Origin: Candidatus Magnetominusculus dajiuhuensis
Lineage (GTDB): Bacteria; Nitrospirota; Thermodesulfovibrionia; Thermodesulfovibrionales; Magnetobacteriaceae
Reading direction: 5' to 3'
Assembly: GCA_015233465.1 (NCBI GenBank)
Contig: JADFXP010000005.1
Location: 1 to 64,000, forward strand
DNA length: 64,000 nt
Part shown: positions 24,449 through 49,164 of the stretch, one piece after another
Layout of the letters: every line of letters begins with the position of its first letter
How positions within the stretch are numbered: position 1 is the stretch's first letter
Program-made: the position numbers and the translations under genes
The notes under the pieces: model-generated
Databases searched by the model: none
Told to the model about the DNA's origin: nothing
Seen by the model: only the letters and a program-made list of their open reading frames with translations

Positions 24449-25534
24449 ATGTTAATATATAATACATTAAATAAAAGGCTTAGCATATTTGCAGCCTCAA
24501 TAATATTTATCTTAATCACCTCTATCCCAACACTCGCGATAGAGTTAGAAACAACCTCTGATAGAGAAATAGATGCAAACTTAACACTTGTAAGCAATAA
24601 CTCAATTAACATCAATGAGATAAAGGTTTTAATCACAGATGCAAGGAATTTTCGCATACCTTCTGGCAACTCTATCATTGAAAAGATTGGCAGGATAAAA
24701 GGGATGCTTAATGTAAATGGACTTAAGTACTCTGGCAAGTTAGATATGTATAAAGATATGCAGGGAACATATATTGTAAACAGCATCCCAATAGAAAACT
24801 ATGTAAAGAGCGTTGTGATGTCTGAACTCTCTGATGACTGGAGCTTTGAAGCCCTTAAGACTCAAGCGGTTATTGCAAGAACATATGCGGTAAATCATAT
24901 ATTAACTAAGCCAAACTCCCTTTATCACCTTACATCATCCACTGATAATCAAATGTATAAAGGCGGTCAAGGCAGCGCAATGGTTTCAAGGGCAGTGGAT
25001 ATTACTGCAGGCGAGGTTCTGACCTATGACGGCAAGGTGATTGTCGCATATTATCACTCAACAAGCTCAGGCAAGACTGAGATTCCAGATGAAGTCTTCC
25101 ATAAACACTATCCTTATCTAAAATCCGTAAAATCTGACGATTCGTTATCCCCAATGTCTTCATGGACAAGAGAGATTCCTTATTCAGATTTTGAGGCAGC
25201 AGTCAATATTAAAGATGTTTATCAAGTAACGATCTATTCTCATACATTAACAGGAAGGGTAAGATCACTAAAGATTTCAGGCTCAGATAAAGATGCAATC
25301 ATTGAAACAAAGGATTTGAGAAAACTACTTGGATGGAAGACTCTGCCAAGCACCATGTTTAAGATTGAAGAGACATCTGATAAAGGAATCACACTAAAGG
25401 GAAGCGGTTATGGACATGGTGTTGGATTAAGCCAGTGGGGCGCACTAAAGATGTCAAGAGACGGTGAGAATTACAGAAAAATCCTTTCTCATTATTATCC
25501 TGGGACAACCATAAAACTCTATGATGACCTCTAG
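24449..25534 (+). CDS. SpoIID/LytB-domain protein
   Basis: A 361-aa exported protein with a signal peptide (residues 1-33). The SpoIID domain follows: VNSIPIENYVKSVVMSELSDDWSFEALKTQAVIARTYAVNH, then YYHSTSSGKTE and the C-terminal GSGYGHGVGLSQWGALKMS. SpoIID-type proteins are lytic transglycosylases acting on denuded peptidoglycan. In non-sporulating bacteria they are linked to cell-wall remodelling. The pairing with queA is a common genomic association. It overlaps queA by 14 nt. Confidence 0.9.
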   Translation: MLIYNTLNKRLSIFAASIIFILITSIPTLAIELETTSDREIDANLTLVSNNSININEIKVLITDARNFRIPSGNSIIEKIGRIKGMLNVNGLKYSGKLDMYKDMQGTYIVNSIPIENYVKSVVMSELSDDWSFEALKTQAVIARTYAVNHILTKPNSLYHLTSSTDNQMYKGGQGSAMVSRAVDITAGEVLTYDGKVIVAYYHSTSSGKTEIPDEVFHKHYPYLKSVKSDDSLSPMSSWTREIPYSDFEAAVNIKDVYQVTIYSHTLTGRVRSLKISGSDKDAIIETKDLRKLLGWKTLPSTMFKIEETSDKGITLKGSGYGHGVGLSQWGALKMSRDGENYRKILSHYYPGTTIKLYDDL

Positions 25535-26531
25535 ATTTTCCTTTGAATTGCCAGAAAGCCTTATTGCGCAAACCCCTACTGAAAAACGCGGGGCTTCACG
25601 GCTGATGGTAGTTCATAGAGGCAGCAACATTGAACACAGACAATTTGATGATATTGTACATTATATAAACTCAGGTGATTTACTTATATTAAATGACACA
25701 AAGGTAACCCCTTGCAGACTAATAGGAGTAAATGACTTAGGTAAAGAAATAGACATTTTATTAGTAGAAGATTTAGGAGATAATAGATATTCAATTCTCA
25801 CAAAGGGTAAAAATACATACAATGTAACATTTAACGACAACCTCTGTGCTAAAATAATTAAAGGAAAAGAGGCAGAATTTTTTTGTAAAGGTGATTTTAG
25901 AGAGACACTTTGGCAGATAGGCAATATGCCCCTCCCGCCCTATATTAAACGCAGACCTGATAATTCTGACAAAGAGCGCTATCAAACGGTTTATGCAAAA
26001 AATGAGGGCTCAATAGCAGCTCCAACTGCTGGAATTCACTTCACAGATTCTATAATTAAATCTCTGATTTCTAAGGGCGTTATAATAAAGTCAATCACTC
26101 TTCATGTAGGAATCGGCACGTTTCGACCAATAAAGGTAGACGATATTAATGATCACAAGATGCTGGATGAATATTTTGAGATCAACACCGATGTAATTGC
26201 TGAAATATCAGAGACTAAAAAAAGAAAAAATAAGGTTATCTTAGTTGGCACAACAAGCACGAGGACGCTTGAGGCTTATTTTTCAGGACAATTTAAGATT
26301 ATCAAAGAGACCGATGAAATGATTTCTGCAAAGACAGATATATTTATAAAACCCGGTCATAAATTTATCGTTCCAGATTGTCTGCTCACCAATTTTCACC
26401 TGCCATGTTCAACGCCTCTGCTGCTTGTTAGCGCATTTGCTGGGATAGATACTATATTAAAATCATATAAAGAGGCAATTGATGTTGGGTATAGATTTTT
26501 TTCCTATGGAGATGCTATGATATTAATGTGA
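25521..26531 (+). CDS. queA: tRNA preQ1(34) S-adenosylmethionine ribosyltransferase-isomerase
   Basis: A 336-aa enzyme transferring ribose from SAM to preQ1 at tRNA position 34, making epoxyqueuosine. Seen: the conserved start FSFELPESLIAQTP, the LLVEDLGDNRY segment, and the C-terminal signature FLPHS-like region reading TAGIHFTDSII...LHVGIGTFRP and TNFHLPCSTPLLLVSAF. It overlaps the SpoIID gene and ends TGA inside the start of a small membrane gene. UGA is thus a normal stop here, which matters for the recoding claim elsewhere. Confidence 0.96.
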   Translation: MMTSRFSFELPESLIAQTPTEKRGASRLMVVHRGSNIEHRQFDDIVHYINSGDLLILNDTKVTPCRLIGVNDLGKEIDILLVEDLGDNRYSILTKGKNTYNVTFNDNLCAKIIKGKEAEFFCKGDFRETLWQIGNMPLPPYIKRRPDNSDKERYQTVYAKNEGSIAAPTAGIHFTDSIIKSLISKGVIIKSITLHVGIGTFRPIKVDDINDHKMLDEYFEINTDVIAEISETKKRKNKVILVGTTSTRTLEAYFSGQFKIIKETDEMISAKTDIFIKPGHKFIVPDCLLTNFHLPCSTPLLLVSAFAGIDTILKSYKEAIDVGYRFFSYGDAMILM

Positions 26532-41593: not shown

Positions 41594-42034
41594 ATGATAA
41601 GATTATCAACAAAGAGTCAATATGGAGTAAGGGCGATGTATGAGATTGCCTGCGGGTATCCTGACAGACCAGTGTCAGCGCCTTTGATCTCTGAGAAACA
41701 GGACGTGCCAGTGCCCTTTTTAGAGCAGATTTTGACTAAATTAAGGAAGGCTGGGATAATAAAGAGCGTAAAAGGGCCTGGAGGCGGATATTTGCTTAAT
41801 GGCAGTCCTGAATCTATTACAATTTGGGATATAGTAGAGCAGCTTGACGGGCCAATGGCAATTACCTCATGTCTTGATCCTCAGAAGGGATGTGTGAGGA
41901 TTGATAATTGTGTCACGCACTTATTATGGAAATCTTTGGGTAATCATCTGAAGGATTTTTTAAGCACTATATCTGTAAATGACCTTGTTAATGGTGTGAT
42001 TTTGGAGAAGATTGGTTTGGAGAAGGCTGGATAG
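41594..42034 (+). CDS. iscR: IscR-type Rrf2 regulator
   Basis: A 146-aa Fe-S sensing repressor. The winged HTH is at the N-terminus (MIRLSTKSQYGVRAMYEIA, FLEQILTKLRKAGIIKSVKGPGGGY). The cluster ligands follow the IscR pattern, C-x6-C-x5-C-x2-H (Cys93, Cys100, Cys106, His109), close to Cys92, Cys98, Cys104 and His107 of E. coli IscR. It is first in an operon of Fe-S assembly genes and sits behind a matching operator, so autoregulation by cluster status is likely. One nucleotide separates it from the next gene. Confidence 0.92.
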   Translation: MIRLSTKSQYGVRAMYEIACGYPDRPVSAPLISEKQDVPVPFLEQILTKLRKAGIIKSVKGPGGGYLLNGSPESITIWDIVEQLDGPMAITSCLDPQKGCVRIDNCVTHLLWKSLGNHLKDFLSTISVNDLVNGVILEKIGLEKAG

Positions 42035-42035
42035 G

Positions 42036-42293
42036 ATGAATTTAAAGTTTGTAGAAAATATTAAACCAGACGTTACAACAGATATAGTTTATATGATGTG
42101 TCCAATGCATCTACTAAAACTACAGGAGATGATTAAGGAGATAGAGGTTGGACAAACGCTTGAGATACTAACAGATTATGATGGCGCACTTGAGGATATT
42201 CCAGCATGGTGCGAAAAGACAGGCAATGAGTTTATTGGAATAGATGAGGCTGAGGATTTTTATAAAATTTATATTAAAAAATTAATTCCATGA
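42036..42293 (+). CDS. TusA/SirA-like sulfur-carrier protein
   Basis: 85 aa from the ATG at 42036. The fold and motif position match TusA: an N-terminal strand (DIVYMMCPMHLLKLQEMIKEIEVGQTLEILTD) with the conserved cysteine in CPMH, where CPxP is usual, then a DIPAWCEKTGNEFIGIDE segment. TusA-type proteins carry persulfide sulfur. Its position between iscR and an IscS homologue lacking the PLP lysine makes it a candidate sulfur source for cluster assembly (inference). Its stop codon lies in the first bases of an inserted repeat pair. Confidence 0.85.
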   Translation: MNLKFVENIKPDVTTDIVYMMCPMHLLKLQEMIKEIEVGQTLEILTDYDGALEDIPAWCEKTGNEFIGIDEAEDFYKIYIKKLIP

Positions 42294-42343
42294 GGGCTCT
42301 GCCCTCAAACACCCGCAAAGGGACTCGTCCCTTTGAACCCATA
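42290..42343 (-). repeat. Palindromic repeat family 1, reverse half of composite 4
   Basis: A reverse copy (GAGGGCTCTGCCCTC; AAAGGGACTCGTCCCTTT) starting at the tusA-like stop. Confidence 0.92.
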
Positions 42344-42397
42344 ATTTTGGGTTATTTATGATAACAAGTTTTTTATTAAGCAATTAATACTATAGTT

Positions 42398-42460
42398 AAT
42401 GGGTTCAAAGGGTCTAAGACCCTTTGCGGGATTTTTAAGGGCGGAGCCCTTAAAGGGTTA
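42398..42460 (+). repeat. Palindromic repeat family 1, forward half of composite 4
   Basis: A forward copy with hairpin A AAAGGGTCTAAGACCCTTT and hairpin B AAGGGCGGAGCCCTT. It faces 42290-42343 across a 54-bp centre shared with composites 2 and 3, and is inserted inside the isc operon. Confidence 0.92.
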
Positions 42461-42480
42461 CTTAAAATAGAGGTGATACT

Positions 42481-43683
42481 ATGAGATATTTTGATCATGT
42501 AGCGACAAACCCTCTTAATCCAGAGGTTTTTAATGCGATGCTTCCGTATTTTAAGGAAGAGTTTGGGAATCCTTTGAGTGTATATGGGCTTGGTCAGAGT
42601 GCAAAGCAGGCAATTGAAGACGCAAGAGTTAAGGTAGCTGCATTAGTAAATTGCAAGGCACAAGAGATAACCTTTACCTCAAGCGGTGCAGAGTCAAATA
42701 ATATGGCAATTAGAGGAATCGCTATGGCAAGGCGCAAGGAAGGCAATCATATAATTGTCTCACGCGTTGAGCATCATTCTGTGCTTAATTCTGCCAGAGC
42801 ACTAGAAAAGGAAGATTTTGTCGTTACATATCTTGTACCAGATAAGTTTGGCATGGTAAGCCCTGCGGACATTAAAAAGGCTATTAATAAAGACACAATT
42901 CTAATTTCTATAACACATGCAAGCAGTGAGATTGGTACGATTGAACCAATTGCTGAGATTGTTAAGACAGCAAAAGAGCATAATGTTGCAGTTCACGCTG
43001 ACGGTGTAGCTACAACTGGAAATATCCCAATAGATGTAATGCAGTTAGGAGTGGATGCTTATAGTCTATCAGCTCATCAGTTTTATGGGCCAAAGGGCGC
43101 TGGAGCGTTATATTTAAAGCGCGGACAGAGGATTTTGCCATTGATATACGGCGGGATTCAGGAAAACGGCAGAAGGGCTGGGACTGAAAATGTGCCCGCT
43201 ATAGTTGGGATGGGTAAGGCAGCAGAGATGGCTAAAGCGGAACTGCCAACACGTATGGCGCATGTAAAAAAGCTAAGAGATAAACTTATAGATGGACTCA
43301 CCAAGATTGAGAAGGTTCATTTAACTGGACATCCAGATAATAGACTTCCAGGACATGCGAGTTTTGTAGTGGAATATATTGAGGGCGAAGGGATGTTATT
43401 AATGCTTGAGGCAAATGATATTTACTCAGCAAGTGGTTCTGCCTGCACCTCAAAGGCATTAAAGGCATCACCAATTTTACTTTCAATGGGCTATTCATCA
43501 TCTGTGACACATGGTTCGATAGTGTTTTCACTTGGAATTGATAATACAGAAGAGGATATTGATCAGGTTTTGGAACATATGCCAAAGATAATTAAAAGAT
43601 TACGAGAGATGTCGCCATTTGCTAAAGAAGGCTGGGGTGCCATTGATGACTTAGAGGAATCAAAGGAGGGTAATCATGTATAG
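42481..43683 (+). CDS. IscS/NifS-like protein lacking the PLP-binding lysine
   Basis: 400 aa, clearly homologous to cysteine desulfurases: TSSGAESNNMAIRG, SRVEHHSVLN, GIQENGRRAGTENVPAIVG and the catalytic-cysteine loop SGSACTSKALKAS. However, the lysine that forms the Schiff base (HK in SGHKIYGPKG of E. coli IscS) is glutamine here (SAHQFYGPKG, codon CAG). The PLP-contacting Gln of the DATQ segment is also lost (HADGVATTG). The sequence resembles Archaeoglobus fulgidus IscS, which also lacks this lysine. It probably scaffolds IscU rather than desulfurating cysteine normally. It overlaps iscU by 8 nt. SD AGAGGTGAT. Confidence 0.9.
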   Translation: MRYFDHVATNPLNPEVFNAMLPYFKEEFGNPLSVYGLGQSAKQAIEDARVKVAALVNCKAQEITFTSSGAESNNMAIRGIAMARRKEGNHIIVSRVEHHSVLNSARALEKEDFVVTYLVPDKFGMVSPADIKKAINKDTILISITHASSEIGTIEPIAEIVKTAKEHNVAVHADGVATTGNIPIDVMQLGVDAYSLSAHQFYGPKGAGALYLKRGQRILPLIYGGIQENGRRAGTENVPAIVGMGKAAEMAKAELPTRMAHVKKLRDKLIDGLTKIEKVHLTGHPDNRLPGHASFVVEYIEGEGMLLMLEANDIYSASGSACTSKALKASPILLSMGYSSSVTHGSIVFSLGIDNTEEDIDQVLEHMPKIIKRLREMSPFAKEGWGAIDDLEESKEGNHV

Positions 43684-44050
43684 CAAAAAACTAATGGATC
43701 ATTTCACAAATCCGCGAAATGTTGGCGAAATAGCAGATGCTGACGGCGTAGGCATGGAAGGCAATCCAACATGCGGCGATACTATGAAGATATTTATAAA
43801 GGTAAAAGACGATATTATCACAGACGCTAAGTTTCAGACATTTGGCTGCGGCGCTGCTATTGCTGTAAGCAGTATGATTACTGAAATGGCAAAGGGCAAG
43901 ACGCTTACAGAGGCTCTCTCAATTACAAAAGAATCGGTTGCCGATGCCCTTGATGGAATGCCTCCACAGAAGATGCACTGCTCAAATCTTGGTTCTGACG
44001 CACTCAGAAAGGCGATTGAGGATTATCACGCTAAAGGCACACAAAAATAG
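43676..44050 (+). CDS. iscU: Fe-S cluster scaffold IscU/NifU
   Basis: A 124-aa scaffold on which [2Fe-2S] clusters form. The three cluster cysteines are present in their usual contexts: GNPTCGDTMK (with the following Asp that governs cluster lability), FQTFGCGAAIAVSSM and PQKMHCSNLG. The C-terminus is short and lacks the LPPVK chaperone-recognition motif of classical IscU, fitting the NifU-type scaffold used without HscA. It overlaps the upstream IscS-like gene, and the next gene starts immediately at its end. Confidence 0.94.
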   Translation: MYSKKLMDHFTNPRNVGEIADADGVGMEGNPTCGDTMKIFIKVKDDIITDAKFQTFGCGAAIAVSSMITEMAKGKTLTEALSITKESVADALDGMPPQKMHCSNLGSDALRKAIEDYHAKGTQK

Positions 44051-45244
44051 ATGCTTATAGTTGATTTAATACAATATGTATATAAATTTATCAGAACACA
44101 GTTAAGAGTAAGTGACAAGGTAAAGATTATTATTAATGATGATCCTGCAATGACTATTAAGGTACCAATAGGAGGCAGGTTATTAAAGACACTTGCTGAT
44201 AATAAGATATACATCCCTTCTGCATGCGGCGGGAATGCTATATGCGGTGAGTGTAGAGTAATTGTCAAAAGCGGGGGCGGAGAAGTCAATGATTCAGAAA
44301 AGATGCCCCTTGATGAGGATGCTATAAAAAATGGTTATCGGCTTTGCTGCCAATTGGAGGTCAAGGAAGATTTAAGTATTGTCATTCCTATAGAGGTGTT
44401 AAAGGTAAGAAAATGGATGTGTACTGTAAGGTCAAATAAGTGTGTGGCATCGTTTATTAAAGAGTTAGTGCTTGAACTTCCAAAGGACGAACATATTGAT
44501 TTTAGAGCAGGAGGATATATTCAAATAGAATCTCCTGCACATACAGTTTTTTATAAGGATTTTAATATTGATTTAAAGTATAAAGAGGATTGGGATAAAC
44601 TTGATTTATGGAAGATAAGTTCGACCGTTAATGAACCTGTTGCAAGGGCATATTCAATGGCTAATTACCCTTTAGAAAGAGACATTGTTATGTTGAATGT
44701 CAGGCTTGCAACCACACCGTATGACCAGCCAAAGCTTCCTACTGGCCAGATGTCTTCATATATCTTTAGTTTAAAGCCTGGTGATAAGGTCAGAATATCC
44801 GGTCCTTATGGAAAGTTTTTTGCAAAAGAAACGGATAATGAGATGATATTTGTTGGCGGAGGCGCTGGGATGGCTCCAATGCGCTCTCATATATATGATC
44901 AGTTAAAAAGAATTAAGACAAATCGAAAGATAAGTTATTGGTATGGCGCTAGGTCTCTTAAAGAACTGTTTTATGTAGAGGAATTTGACGCTCTACAAAA
45001 AGAACATCCAAATTTTCGTTGGAATGTTGCATTATCAGCGCCATTGCCAGAGGATAGATGGAGTGGAGCTGTAGGGTTTGTGCATCAATTTTTATTTGAT
45101 TGTTATCTGAAGAATCATCCAGCGCCTATGGATTGCGAGTATTATTTATGCGGCCCTCCTATGATGACAAACGCAGTTGTAAAGATGCTTTCAGGGCTTG
45201 GAGTAAAGTCAGAAAATATATTTTTCGATGATTTTGGAGGATAA
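44051..45244 (+). CDS. Soluble NqrF-like ferredoxin:NAD(P)H reductase
   Basis: 397 aa matching NqrF throughout: a 2Fe-2S ferredoxin domain ([14 protein letters not shown]...CCQL), a flavin site RAYSMANYP, the NqrF-specific [20 protein letters not shown] and [16 protein letters not shown], an NADH site [21 protein letters not shown] and the FFDDFGG end. True NqrF is anchored by an N-terminal TM helix to NqrA-E. Here the first ~25 residues are amphipathic, not a TM helix, and no nqrA-E genes are nearby. In this isc operon it may feed electrons to cluster assembly or to the selenoproteins (inference). Confidence 0.88.
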
Positions 45245-45246
45245 AG

Positions 45247-45708
45247 TTGAAGACTGCCGAAGAGATAGTTCAAGAAAAAAACAAAGAACTGATCAGCGTT
45301 TCTTTTAATACTCCTATTAAGGATGCTGTTATTGTGATGCTTAATAATAAGATTGGCACAATACTTGTTAAAAAGGATAATAAATATATAGGTTTTTGGA
45401 CAGAACGTGATTTATTACGCAATATAAGTATCAAAGGTTTTGACTTGGAGACTGCAGTTATTGGAGATTTTTTAGAGGCGCATATTGAAACTGTTCCACA
45501 TACGGATAATATATTTCAATTATTTGATAAATTTATTGGCAGGAACATTCGTTATATGCTGGTTCAAAAGGTAGATGAATATATTGGGCTGATTTCAAGA
45601 GGCGATGTAATAAGGGCAAGTCTATACGAAAAAAATGAGACTCTAAGAGAGTTAAATGCAATAGTCAGTTGGGAATATTACGATAATTGGCGTTGGAAAA
45701 AAGAATAA
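45247..45708 (+). CDS. CBS-domain pair protein
   Basis: A 153-aa protein starting TTG, 2 bp after the NqrF-like stop. It has two CBS motifs: ISVSFNTPIKDAVIVMLNNKIGTILVKKDNKYIGFWTERDLLRN and ETVPHTDNIFQLFDKFIGRNIRYMLVQKVDEYIGLISRGDVIRA. CBS pairs bind adenine nucleotides or SAM and act as energy or metabolite sensors. It has no effector domain and ends with an aromatic tail (WEYYDNWRWKKE). In this operon it could modulate the reductase; that is inference. Confidence 0.88.
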   Translation: MKTAEEIVQEKNKELISVSFNTPIKDAVIVMLNNKIGTILVKKDNKYIGFWTERDLLRNISIKGFDLETAVIGDFLEAHIETVPHTDNIFQLFDKFIGRNIRYMLVQKVDEYIGLISRGDVIRASLYEKNETLRELNAIVSWEYYDNWRWKKE

Positions 45709-45725
45709 TAATCAAAGGAGACATT

Positions 45726-46010
45726 ATGAAAAAAAAGCTATCATTGTATGTTTTGGGAGTATTGCTAATCATATTAATGGCTTGTGGTATATCTAATGCA
45801 GGTCAAACTGTTGTAACATTAACGATTCCGGGCATGACATGAGGCGGAACTGCCCATAGCGTAAGTTCTGCGCTAAAAGCTATAGCTGGGGTAATTGATA
45901 TTAAGACGGATACGGATAAACATACTGCAGAAGTTACTTATGATAGTGATAAGGCAAATGTTGATAAAATGAAAAAAGCACTGTTAGATGTAGGGTTTGT
46001 TGTGAAATAA
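45726..46010 (+). CDS. Secreted HMA (MerP-like) selenoprotein candidate 1
   Basis: 94 aa if TGA at 45840-45842 is read as selenocysteine (codon 39). SD AAAGGAG lies 5 nt before the ATG. Residues 1-25 are a signal peptide (a lipobox-like LMAC is also present). The mature part is an HMA ferredoxin-like domain: VTLTIPGMT-U-GGTAHSVSSALKAIAGVIDIKTD, then AEVTYDSDKANVDKMKKALLDVGFVV. The TGA replaces the first Cys of GMTCxxC, and the second Cys is Thr (UxxT). UGA is a normal stop in neighbouring genes such as queA. A SECIS-like stem-loop follows. The paralogue next door has TGA at the same codon. Confidence 0.8.
45857..45875 (+). promoter_or_regulatory. Bacterial SECIS-like stem-loop 1
   Basis: The stem UAGCGU / GCGCUA (including a U-G pair) closes a 7-nt loop AAGUUCU, starting 14-15 nt after the UGA. 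Distance and loop (compare AGGUCU in E. coli fdhF) fit a SelB-binding bacterial SECIS. Confidence 0.6.
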
Positions 46011-46044
46011 TTTTTTAGACTATAAATATTTATTTGAGGCTTTA

Positions 46045-46347
46045 TTGAAAATTAAATTACAAGTCTATATTTTGGCTGCATTGATACTTATAATACTATC
46101 TGCAGGATCATCAATGGCAGAACAGGGATCAATAGATTTGATTGTCTTAGGTATGTCTTGAGGAGATACTGCAAAAAGTGTAAGTTCTGCACTAAAGACG
46201 ATTGATGGAGTGATAGATGTCAAGATTGATGTAGTGAAAAACATTGCTACAGTAATCTATGATAGTGATAAGACTAAAGTTGATCAATTGAGAAAAGACT
46301 TGACTGATGCTGGTTATGTGGAGAAATCATTAAATACTAAACCCTAA
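46045..46347 (+). CDS. Secreted HMA (MerP-like) selenoprotein candidate 2
   Basis: 100 aa if TGA at 46159-46161 is selenocysteine, again codon 39. The start is TTG, with GAGG 5 nt upstream; it lies 34 bp after the first paralogue. A signal peptide (1-25, SMA-E) leads to an HMA domain: IDLIVLGMS-U-GDTAKSVSSALKTIDGVIDVKID, then ATVIYDSDKTKVDQLRKDLTDAGYV. The first metal-site Cys is the TGA and the second is Thr (UxxT). Frame, length and domain are intact on both sides of the TGA, unlike a decaying gene. Likely periplasmic, redox- or metal-related; the role is unknown. Confidence 0.8.
46177..46193 (+). promoter_or_regulatory. Bacterial SECIS-like stem-loop 2
   Basis: The stem AGUGU / GCACU closes the same AAGUUCU loop, at the same distance from the UGA as in paralogue 1. 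The C-G pair of stem 1 is U-A here; both changes are silent (AGC/AGT, GCG/GCA), a compensatory pair. Confidence 0.6.
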
Positions 46348-46580
46348 AAAAGTGTTATAAAGACTGAAGGCTGCCTTAAAGGATGGCTGCTACAATGGGA
46401 TTTTTTAAACAAGTCTGAGATCCACCCATTAACAAACACCTTTCATAATCATTTCTTTTCATAAGCGGCAAACATCTGCCTAATGAGATATATTGTTTAT
46501 CAAAAATATCTACGCTTTATACGAAATCTTATTTTTACTAACCATTAATACCAAGTTGTGTTCATAAAAGTATATATCCA

Positions 46581-46700
46581 TTGAAATATAGGGGCAGCTT
46601 TTTTGTAACAGGTCTTAGACCCTGTGGCTGCCCTGTTTTACGTTTTGCCTGCATGTAACTTGGCTAACCACAAGCGTTACCCCTACGAAATACGATTTCA
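46581..46700 (-). repeat. Repeat family 3, reverse copy
   Basis: It begins AAATATAGGGGCAGC and ends GCGTTACCCCTACGAAATACG, the reverse complement of the copy at 51276-51358. A GGTCTTAGACC palindrome lies inside. Confidence 0.7.
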
Positions 46701-46841
46701 AATAGAATTAACTGAATTACTTCTAAGAAAGCAACTTAATATAAATACCCCGTCTGCTAAGCATCCACACTCTTTTTCTAAAAGGGGTATTTATACATGC
46801 CTTGAACCCGCTTTAAGTATAAATAAGGGCACTAAGCAGCA

Positions 46842-46945
46842 CCTACATTAATATATTTTGGAACAGCTACATGCAGCTTCCCAACGAATACAATATTCAT
46901 CAGATACTTTAGCCTACATTAATATATTTTGGAACAGCTACATGC
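46842..46945 (+). repeat. 33-bp direct repeat, two copies
   Basis: CCTACATTAATATATTTTGG plus AACAGCTACATGC occurs at 46842-46874 and 46913-46945, a period of 71 bp. Only two copies are present. The purpose is unknown. Confidence 0.85.
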
Positions 46946-47040
46946 TGAACCTTCCCTATATGATGGATAATAATATTTTTTTATGTAAATATGGACGTAA
47001 CAATTACAAAAGAGCATCACTTATTCAGATTTGACTAATA

Positions 47041-47078
47041 GAAAAGCCTAATTGATAACTATATCAATTAGGCTTTTC
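47041..47078. terminator. Strong bidirectional hairpin terminator
   Basis: A 17-bp perfect stem GAAAAGCCTAATTGATA / TATCAATTAGGCTTTTC with a 4-nt loop and A/T flanks on both sides. It may end the isc/selenoprotein transcript and the minus-strand cytochrome transcript. Confidence 0.75.
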
Positions 47079-47214
47079 TATTTATATAGTTCGAAGAATG
47101 ATTTGCTCATTCTATCTATTAACACTTACAACTTTAAAATGATTTTAGTGGTACAATCATTTAAATGAAGTTGACCTCAAACATCCATCCATTGTTTATA
47201 CCAGATTAATTTAT

Positions 47215-47571
47215 CTACTTCTTATGACATTTGACGCAATTTTCAGGTTTATCCTTTGATGCAGCAAAAGCCTTTGTTCCATTATGACATGCTCCGCAAT
47301 ACTTACCTGCAAATATATCATCCATCTTAAATTGTGTTAAATGTCCATTATTATCAAATGCCTCTTTTGCTTCATCCATATGCATAAATATCGAAGCATG
47401 ACAATCATTACATTTCATGCCTAGTTCAGAATGCTTACCGCGGTCAAATGTAACCTTGCCTTCATTACCAACTGGCTTAAAATCCATCTTAGCTACTGGA
47501 ATTGCAAAAGCACTTCCTACCAATGTAATCAATACAGTTATGACTAATAATATACTGAACTTCATCTTCAT
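47215..47571 (-). CDS. Periplasmic triheme cytochrome c (c7-type)
   Basis: 118 aa from the ATG at 47571 (SD AGGGGTG); an upstream in-frame start at 47610 has no SD. The signal peptide ends SAFA. Three CxxCH haem motifs (CNDCH, CGACH, CVKCH) plus extra histidines (GKHSELG, HMDEAKEAFDNNGH) fit the c7/c3 triheme domain with bis-His haems. It is a small soluble periplasmic electron carrier. The outer-membrane cytochrome-porin is encoded directly upstream on the same strand, but a strong terminator lies between them. Confidence 0.92.
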   Translation of the reverse strand: MKMKFSILLVITVLITLVGSAFAIPVAKMDFKPVGNEGKVTFDRGKHSELGMKCNDCHASIFMHMDEAKEAFDNNGHLTQFKMDDIFAGKYCGACHNGTKAFAASKDKPENCVKCHKK

Positions 47572-47749
47572 TTTTAACACCCCTGTTTTAAATAAATAAT
47601 TGTAAATCAAATTTTAGCGAATTTAAGTTATAAATTATAACTTATAAAAAAAAATAACCTACACTAAATCCTCATTATTAAGCAAACAGAAGAGTATAGT
47701 TAGATTATTTTTAAAAGGTAGATTATTAAGATTACTGAATATTTTTGAT

Positions 47750-47784
47750 AAAGAAACTGGACTCTTAAAGAGTCCAGTTTCTTT
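47750..47784 (-). terminator. Terminator of the cytochrome-porin gene
   Basis: A 16-bp perfect stem AAAGAAACTGGACTCT / AGAGTCCAGTTTCTTT with a 3-nt loop starts 7 bp past the stop codon. Confidence 0.85.
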
Positions 47785-47790
47785 ATTGAT

Positions 47791-49164
47791 TTAGAATATT
47801 ACGTAAAAAGTTGAACCTAATACAGCATCAGCAAAATATCCGCCAGTAGTGTATTGAGTTGTCTTATAAGTAAAAGTTGTATTTAAATACATCCACTGGT
47901 TAAAGCGGCTGTTTTCACCCAAAGCAACCTGTGTAATTTGTGGAATGTGTGCAAGACCAGTCATACTGGTTGGGTTTGTATTTGAATATGAAAGTGCAAA
48001 TACTGTTAAAGGTGATATGTGATATTCAACATCTCCAAACCAAGTTGTGCTATATGTGGATGAAGAACCATTAAGTACATTTGTCTTAAATGCTGCGTTG
48101 TCGTAAGAATCGTTTCCATACAAAAACCCTGCAATTAAGGTAATCTTAGAAGGCACTACCCAATATTGACCATAGATTGACAATCTGTTTGTAGTGTCAT
48201 TAGCAGTTGAAGCGCCGTTTACATATCTGCCTGCTGCGTTTAGAACTGGTAATCCAAAAGGTACATTGTTAAGAAGACCATTGTACCATACTGCTGTTAT
48301 GCAACCATCGCCAATAAACTGGTTTGCTGTAAGTCCATAGCTAGGACGATTAGGTGTTGTGCCATTTGTGCTGCTGAAAAATCCAGCATATGAACCAAAA
48401 GAATAATCAGATGCTACTCCGCCTGTACCGCTGTACCAAATACCATCAGTTATCTTTGCAAATAAAGATGTTCCTGAAACAACATTATTATAGCCAAGCT
48501 CTATGCCTGATTCTGTTCCGCCTGATGCAACTAACAAAGCAGCTGAACCGCTGTAAGCTGCTGGATTTCCTGATGCCTTTGAAGTAATTGCTAATGATGA
48601 AGGAAAGCCTAAGTTACTTCCTGTTGCTGTTGAGTTAGCAGCAGTCATAGCTTCCATAGTACCAACTCTTGCTGTAAAGAATTGATTCTCGTCGCCAAAT
48701 ACTCCCAAAGCCCAAAGGTTAGCAATTGAAATTGCGCCAGGATCTTCAACGCCTGCCTGCCTGCTGATAGATAACTCTACATGTGTACCAAAATTCTTAC
48801 CCCATGCGCCTGTCATTGGATACAATGTTACGGTTCCAGCCTCAATACCTGCTCTCTGATAATTAGCAGATGCGCCTGTGTTATCAAAGTGATTAGAATA
48901 CTGAGCCTTTACTGAAATCCTGCCTGCCCAATAATCTTCCATTTTAAATGCTCCAGTATCCTTGCCTACTTCATTAGGCATTCTGAAACCAGCAGCCTTA
49001 AAATCAAACCCCACCTTGTTTAACTGTGCTACGTTTGTATGGCACATGGTGCAGTCTGCACCATATTTCCTTGCAAACATCGGCATAGCCTGACTGCTCT
49101 CTGGTATCAACATTAATCCCATAACAAACATCAGGCTAAACAATAATAATAGTTTTCGACCCAT
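47791..49164 (-). CDS. Outer-membrane monohaem cytochrome-porin (Cyc2-like)
   Basis: 457 aa. The signal peptide ends SSQA-M at residue 26. A short haem segment follows at once: MPMFARKYGADCTMCHTNVAQLN (CxxCH at 38-42), then VGFDFKAAGFRMP. The rest (60-457) is beta-rich with alternating aromatic/polar strands and ends in phenylalanine (FYVIF), typical of an outer-membrane barrel. This layout (P.FAR..G..C..CH, F...FK..GY/F, barrel) matches Cyc2, the fused cytochrome-porin that takes electrons from Fe(II). It may do that or another extracellular electron exchange. It ends at a strong terminator. Confidence 0.8.
   Translation of the reverse strand: MGRKLLLLFSLMFVMGLMLIPESSQAMPMFARKYGADCTMCHTNVAQLNKVGFDFKAAGFRMPNEVGKDTGAFKMEDYWAGRISVKAQYSNHFDNTGASANYQRAGIEAGTVTLYPMTGAWGKNFGTHVELSISRQAGVEDPGAISIANLWALGVFGDENQFFTARVGTMEAMTAANSTATGSNLGFPSSLAITSKASGNPAAYSGSAALLVASGGTESGIELGYNNVVSGTSLFAKITDGIWYSGTGGVASDYSFGSYAGFFSSTNGTTPNRPSYGLTANQFIGDGCITAVWYNGLLNNVPFGLPVLNAAGRYVNGASTANDTTNRLSIYGQYWVVPSKITLIAGFLYGNDSYDNAAFKTNVLNGSSSTYSTTWFGDVEYHISPLTVFALSYSNTNPTSMTGLAHIPQITQVALGENSRFNQWMYLNTTFTYKTTQYTTGGYFADAVLGSTFYVIF

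Follow-up and report, generated by a model that had tools for sequence, protein, structure and literature searches.

Two adjacent genes in the window, by which is meant the whole stretch of 64,000 nucleotides analyzed here, very probably encode selenoproteins in which UGA is read as selenocysteine (Sec). The model put forward here proposes that SelB and tRNA-Sec would read the UGA of codon 39 in each gene as Sec, that insertion would be directed by a short hairpin 15 bases past the UGA with GU in its loop, and that the pair would have arisen by local duplication. Within the proteins, the first Cys of the metal site would have become Sec and the second would have been lost, leaving one selenolate with no thiol nearby. 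Both products are predicted to be exported, given their signal-peptide-like start.

The gene pair

Gene 1 (45726..46010, + strand) starts with ATG and, when TGA is translated as Sec, specifies a proposed secreted HMA-fold selenoprotein of 94 aa with Sec at residue 39 (GMTUGGT). Gene 2 (46045..46347, +), its tandem paralogue, begins with TTG after a gap of 34 bases and specifies 100 aa under the same reading, again with Sec at residue 39 (GMSUGDT). The proposed Sec codons occupy 45840..45842 in gene 1 and 46159..46161 in gene 2 (both +), and both genes close with TAA. A preliminary description of this DNA had claimed a single in-frame TGA at codon 39 in each of two adjacent genes, together with ribosome sites and signal peptides, and these claims hold: the coordinates were confirmed, GGAG lies upstream of the gene 1 start and GAGG upstream of that of gene 2, and both genes open with a signal-peptide-like stretch followed by the HMA domain. 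Within the signal peptide of gene 1 (window 45726-45800) stands LMAC, which we take to be a weak lipobox-like site, and the gene 1 product might on that account be a lipoprotein rather than a soluble protein. When the TGA is read through, the products of gene 1 and gene 2 score 50.4 and 48.5 bits, respectively, against the HMA model (PF00403, cut-off 24.8 bits). Alignment with ten CxxC proteins places the TGA of both genes, including codon 39 of gene 1, on the first metal-site Cys and a Thr on the second, as had been claimed, and where the HMA domain has its CxxC metal site both genes have UxxT. The two genes are 51% identical, and over the 55 codons past the TGA they differ 11, 14, and 27 times at codon positions 1, 2, and 3, respectively. 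Such a concentration of differences at position 3 is what a translated stretch would show.

Conservation of the in-frame TGA

A profile built from eight members was searched in the 176 genomes of the window's order. Among the best 25 matches (E up to 2.1e-20, all eight profile rows included), 24 contain exactly one internal stop, which is TGA (16 of 17 without the profile rows); each of the 24 was checked and has the TGA at the first-Cys motif residue, and 22 of them come from outside the window pair. The second metal-site Cys is kept by none of the 24, its place being taken across the group by S, T, A, N, or K, with the motifs UASS, UASA, UATS, UAST, UATN, UASK, USAS, UAGT, UGGT, and UGDT among strong members and UATK and UPDT in two weaker ones. 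All 21 proteins of the order that were examined lack Cys in the stretch that begins 12 residues ahead of the Sec and runs up to the C-terminus. The 25th best match, in genome G153, has TGT at the motif residue, and a Cys form therefore exists. The preliminary description had suggested asking whether Cys or Sec occupies codon 39 in homologues, and the relatives do carry TGA or Cys there; it had likewise named reads with a Cys codon instead of TGA as a test, and since 19 further genomes of the order and 11 of another phylum have the TGA as well, it is not a read error. A few more of the weaker matches contain TGA (motif position was checked in the 24 strong ones), others (L089-L091, L094, and L095) are CxxC proteins, and many more lie within long frames. 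Nine of ten relatives tested pass the gathering cut-off of the HMA model (PF00403), L083 falling below it.

Two other proteins were encountered along the way. One (L061, G036:C10:40693-40914) is probably a P-type ATPase; its frame of 708 codons includes an HMA domain with UxxC (GLCUANC), which resembles the UxxC ATPase selenoprotein already known. The other (L060, G045:C73:49215-49445) is a small HMA protein with CxxU (GMVCELU), in which the arrangement is reversed.

Relatives beyond the order

The wider searches covered up to 12 candidates in each genome. Of 395 genomes from the window's own phylum, 42 gave matches at E <= 1e-14, those below 1e-25 being confined to the window's order. Of 395 genomes of Thermodesulfobacteriota, the phylum of locus L139, 15 gave a match at that same threshold; 11 of these have one TGA and no other stop, and the TGA of these 11 falls in the same HMA loop. 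Three of them read PGVVUGST, five CxxU, two CxU, and one SGGU; given the CxxU and CxU motifs, some of these relatives retain a Cys, placed on the opposite side of the Sec. The five CxxU relatives (L224, L225, L226, L229, and L231) have PGCAAU, PGCAGU, PGCSAU, PGCFSU, and SGCSAU, respectively, in the HMA loop; their hairpin lies one codon nearer the TGA, and the loop GU is missing in L229 and L231. A scan of named genomes returned 67 loci, the best being that of Ca. Magnetocorallium paracelense, and all ten that were aligned of the other 66 are CxxC proteins. No relative was found in viral contigs.

A constrained hairpin after the TGA

A SECIS-like hairpin follows the TGA in both genes, at 45858..45874 (+) in gene 1 (stem AGCGTA / TGCGCT, loop AGTTC) and at 46177..46193 (+) in gene 2 (stem AGTGTA / TGCACT, loop AGTTC). 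The third stem pair is C-G in gene 1 and U-A in gene 2, both sides having changed, and A-U in the relative L074. A fixed register (6-bp stem, 5-base loop, start 15 bases past the TGA) was read mainly from these three sequences and scored against a null model of 2000 synonymous recodings per member, with local codon use and the protein sequence held fixed. Among 24 members of the order, all of which were visible when the register was fixed, so that this test was not blind, stem pairs number 128 of 144 (100.1 expected, recoding maximum 112), and GU stands at the fixed place of the loop in 23 of 24 (2.6 expected, recoding maximum 9), the 24th having GU one base later. This set includes the weak members L053 and L093 and omits two strong ones, both of which have the GU, with five and four pairs. 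In a 19-member subset without near-copies, 102 pairs are formed (78.6 expected, maximum 90) and GU is present in 18 members (2.1 expected, maximum 8). When gene 1, gene 2, and L074 are removed and two registers are allowed, 110 of 126 pairs remain (90.1 expected, maximum 102). The residue coded over the loop GU varies among Ser, Arg, and Gly, and it is thus the nucleotides, not the residue, that are conserved there. The recodings show this candidate element to be constrained beyond the protein code, its loop GU and its stem both exceeding what synonymous codon choice yields.

The 11 relatives of the second phylum allowed a blind test in the fixed register, in which the stem formed 42 of 66 pairs (expected 34.0, maximum 44) and four of the 11 had the loop GU (expected 1.1, maximum 6), both figures lying above expectation and within the range of the recodings. 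With the register free to move one codon nearer the UGA, the stem forms 56 of 66 pairs (expected 42.5, maximum 51) and nine of the 11 have the GU (expected 2.5, maximum 7); this freedom, needed by the CxxU members, was applied to data and recodings alike and was chosen after the blind result. Two of the 11 members have no loop GU in either register. When 14 of the order's 24 members were aligned without gaps, 91.7% of cells were paired, against 23-61% in slid controls, and both-side changes affected 14 cells, compared with 4.7 in shuffles. Two of the five covariation measures were not above shuffles: three pairs have a both-side change (288 of 500 shuffles as high), and there are nine further pair types (136 of 500 as high), these shuffle counts not being probabilities, as the sequences are related.

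In its geometry the hairpin agrees with the bSECIS model, which has a loop of 3-9 nt, a stem of 4-16 bp, a G within the first two loop bases, and 16-37 nt from UGA to loop, as given in a 2026 review (PMC13188914); the corresponding values, which concern geometric criteria only, are a loop of 5, a stem of 6, G second in the loop and then U, and a spacing of 21. Folding of the 51 bases from the TGA was no better than that of shuffles (z -0.30 and +0.30 for the two genes), and the minimum-energy structure of gene 2 over those 51 bases is a different fold from the proposed hairpin; shorter stretches, of 20 bases around the hairpin, do adopt its structure. The hairpin past the TGA of the genome's own selD is not in the same register, and no SECIS family was listed by an Rfam search of window 44000-48000.

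When a short gene contains an internal stop, decay is the most frequent cause, and with a genome that is a draft of 75 contigs the pair might be read as decaying pseudogenes, or the TGAs as assembly errors. That reading is extremely improbable, as it is opposed by the recurrence of a single TGA at one motif residue in 24 of the order's 25 best matches, by the TGA that 11 relatives of another phylum have in the same loop, by the open frames and ribosome sites, by the codon-position pattern past the TGA, and by the constraint on the hairpin. Chance or decay was ruled out by the conservation of the TGA and the hairpin evidence.

Selenocysteine machinery and UGA as a stop

The preliminary description had proposed a search of the same genome for selA, selB, selC, and selD, and all four were found. 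A tRNA-Sec scores 73.6 bits and is called tRNA-SeC (tca) by ARAGORN, selB scores 374.5, selA 601.2, and selD 349.8 bits, and all of these exceed the curated cut-offs; a second tRNA match, barely above the tRNA-Sec cut-off, is a tRNA-Ser. The selD of this genome itself carries an in-frame TGA, with the motif CGUAAK. The presence of selA has no discriminating value, since 153 of the order's 176 genomes have it. Among 21 further genomes with a member (G153 being one of the 21), tRNA-Sec was detected in 20; it was not found in G168, which does have selA. At E 1e-60 no selA match is listed for the carriers G100 and G171, the latter by its absence from the listings.

TGA also serves as an ordinary stop, terminating 9 of the window's 53 non-overlapping ORFs that are 120 aa or longer, with a run-on of the frame past the TGA of 0-26 codons. 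That UGA is a normal stop in queA and in the tusA-like gene, as stated earlier, stands as far as the stops are concerned, since the tusA-like gene and the ORF at 25521-26531 both end in TGA; the latter reads like QueA, a name judged from the start of the ORF rather than by a family search. Wholesale reassignment of UGA is ruled out by the nine ORFs that TGA ends. More generally, UGA might be read by another route, through a reassigned code (Trp, Gly, or Cys) or by near-cognate leakage, in favor of which nothing specific can be named. The short run-on past the stops, the presence of tRNA-Sec (tca), the position of the TGA in place of a Cys, and the SECIS-like hairpin after it speak against such a route, which is very improbable.

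Fold and origin

An AlphaFold2 model of gene 1, made with a 13-row alignment, has the HMA fold, with a mean pLDDT of 82.4 and 91-95 per block over residues 31-94. The solved structures closest to it are MerP, a copper-binding protein, and CopZ, the best PDB match being MerP 1osd (TM 0.90 by target, rmsd 1.0). A 41-row tree places gene 1 and gene 2 as sisters (support 98/96), which suggests a local duplication; outside this genome the nearest relative is in G006, which belongs to the same family as the genome of the window. With support of 98/93, the Cys form of G153 joins 16 Sec forms, and the six CxxC rows come together at 100/97. The order's Sec forms make up no single clean group, with five changes, at least two of them forced by starred branches. 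As, in addition, 12 of the 38 inner branches are open and the rows are short, the tree does not establish that the Sec forms arose once.

Genomic neighborhoods

Upstream of the pair lies a cluster (41594..45708, +) of genes for an Rrf2 regulator, a TusA-like protein, a NifS-like cysteine desulfurase, an IscU/NifU-like scaffold, an NqrF-like reductase, and a CBS protein. Only 17 bases separate the CBS-domain gene from gene 1 on the same strand, and we infer that the cluster and the pair are co-transcribed. The pair had been described as standing at the end of an isc operon; it does close a same-strand cluster, but the gene order is isc-like and not that of a canonical isc operon. Neither MerT nor MerR is encoded among the seven neighboring genes scanned. 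Downstream of the pair, a direct repeat of ~31 bases (ctacattaatatattttggaacagctacatg) occurs in two copies (window 46843-46945), and at window 47732-47798 microRNA precursor models match both strands with scores well under their cut-offs, which are most likely chance matches on an inverted repeat.

An all-against-all comparison of 370 ORFs from 26 loci, together with the ORFs of 11 further loci, found no general conserved neighbor, close relatives sharing theirs. When nine query proteins were sought in the 37 loci, the only ones found beyond a single genus were selD (3 of 37) and a nifS-like gene (2 of 37, one of the two being the window), and conserved neighbors were dropped as a guide to function. 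As the neighborhoods are mostly not conserved, function is poorly constrained.

Individual loci offer particular arrangements. In G081 (L109:6320-9976) and G082 (L110:3888-7534), an ArsR regulator, a single-Sec HMA gene, a TauE permease, SelD, and a second TauE form a putative operon that is a possible selenium uptake cassette, and the SelD of L109 itself has a TGA (CAGUAAK). In G596 (L242:1257-5403), of the other phylum, SelD, a YbaK-like gene, a NifS-like gene, a gene for a 145-aa protein without an NCBIfam match, and a Sec-HMA gene follow one another on one strand, with selD cut by the contig end and an 85-aa ORF between the YbaK-like and NifS-like genes. According to the 2026 review, a Sec lyase has been placed in a selD-containing operon (PMC13188914), a loose parallel to Sec-HMA genes beside selD.

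Possible functions of a single selenolate

The HMA fold and the position of the Sec may point to the binding of a thiophilic ligand outside the cytoplasm. It is plausible, at somewhat less than an even chance, that the lone selenolate would bind a thiophilic species in the periplasm (reduced selenium, or a soft metal, for example Hg, Cu, Ag, or Cd) and pass it to a partner.

An alternate scenario would make the pair redox selenoproteins, in which the Sec would react with a thiol, a peroxide, or a selenium compound, an outside thiol would then restore it, and no metal would be bound. Most characterized selenoproteins have a thioredoxin-like fold and a redox motif, according to the 2026 review (PMC13188914), and relatives in the second phylum with CxxU (five) or CxU (two) in the same loop have the spacing of a redox pair. 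However, no Cys stands near or after the Sec in any of the 21 members of the order examined, and the fold is of the metal chaperone type rather than that of thioredoxin, so that redox chemistry appears rather unlikely.

The proteins might instead carry or sense selenium or sulfur (selenide, selenite, or persulfide) and feed SelD or a permease, a reading that coincides with the selenium half of the binding proposal. The rows that place a Sec-HMA gene between ArsR and TauE-SelD-TauE in G081 and G082 (one genus) and behind SelD and a NifS-like gene in G596 favor it, as does the position of the window pair downstream of NifS-like and TusA-like genes. Yet selD is nearby in only 3 of 37 loci, a raw count, and two of the three are from one genus; the selD-adjacent loci are a lead towards selenium, not proof, and a selenium or sulfur carrier is on balance unlikely, a little more so than redox chemistry. 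Combining these elements with the proposed binding by a single selenolate, the proteins could be a nearly Sec-only set of periplasmic carriers, in which an HMA fold without its second thiol would use one selenolate to bind and deliver reduced selenium or a soft metal; their partners would be SelD, TauE-type permeases, and cysteine desulfurases. This idea is speculative and the least likely of the functional proposals; were it true, the carriers would form a selenium-dependent arm of selenium homeostasis itself.

Whatever the ligand, the group is unusual in having Sec in 24 of the 25 best matches and a single Cys form among them, with the second HMA-site Cys absent, and it opens the question of what a single selenolate does in a metal-chaperone fold beyond what a Cys pair does. 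Standard gene finders halt at TGA, and genes of this kind are thus easily shortened or missed. A tandem, small, and probably soluble pair with a constrained hairpin should also be convenient for tests of Sec insertion in Nitrospirota.

Comparison with known systems

The window pair and the ten relatives tested score under the cut-off of every NCBIfam model listed for them. One of these is UxxU_metal_bind (NF041115), a metal-binding (seleno)protein that, like the pair, has an HMA-type domain with Sec at the metal site and that appears in selenoprotein tables as 'putative mercuric reductase' UxxU; it has two Sec, whereas in the pair there is one and the second position is neither Sec nor Cys. 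Against its cut-off of 95 bits, gene 1 and gene 2 score 42.7 and 33.5, and the ten relatives at most 41.2, one of these not being listed. MerT_CopZ_Se (NF045683), a MerT/CopZ fusion-like heavy metal transport selenoprotein, shares an HMA/CopZ part with the pair, which matches only its last third and lacks the MerT part (35.7 and 34.3 bits for the pair and at most 39.9 for the ten relatives, cut-off 375). MerP (TIGR02052; PDB 1osd and 1afi), the periplasmic mercury-binding protein, has the same fold, a signal peptide, and one HMA domain, but its metal site is CxxC, as in the ten aligned proteins, and that of the pair is UxxT (51.5 and 51.1 bits for the pair and 42.5-64.7 for the ten relatives, cut-off 92.55).

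The mention in the preliminary description of MerP-type Sec proteins in metagenomic surveys is confirmed by the GOS survey of 2008, where a table row gives 'Mercuric transport protein MerP' as a selenoprotein with no motif and a first number, 2, that is taken as the number of sequences (PMC2398784). That protein resembles the pair in being a MerP-type Sec protein and is known here from the table row. Table 1 of the 2026 review does not contain the GOS protein under that name and has no single-Sec HMA entry of the pair's type, and it does include a cation-transporting ATPase E1-E2 selenoprotein with UxxC (PMC13188914). In the latter, as in the pair, Sec replaces the first Cys of CxxC; unlike the pair, it is a large P-type ATPase that retains the second Cys. 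No description of single-Sec HMA proteins was found in the literature searched, of which relevant papers were partly out of reach, and a prior mention is possible. HMA selenoproteins are thus known as a kind, and what appears to be new in the pair is the combination of one predicted Sec with the absence of the second metal-site Cys.
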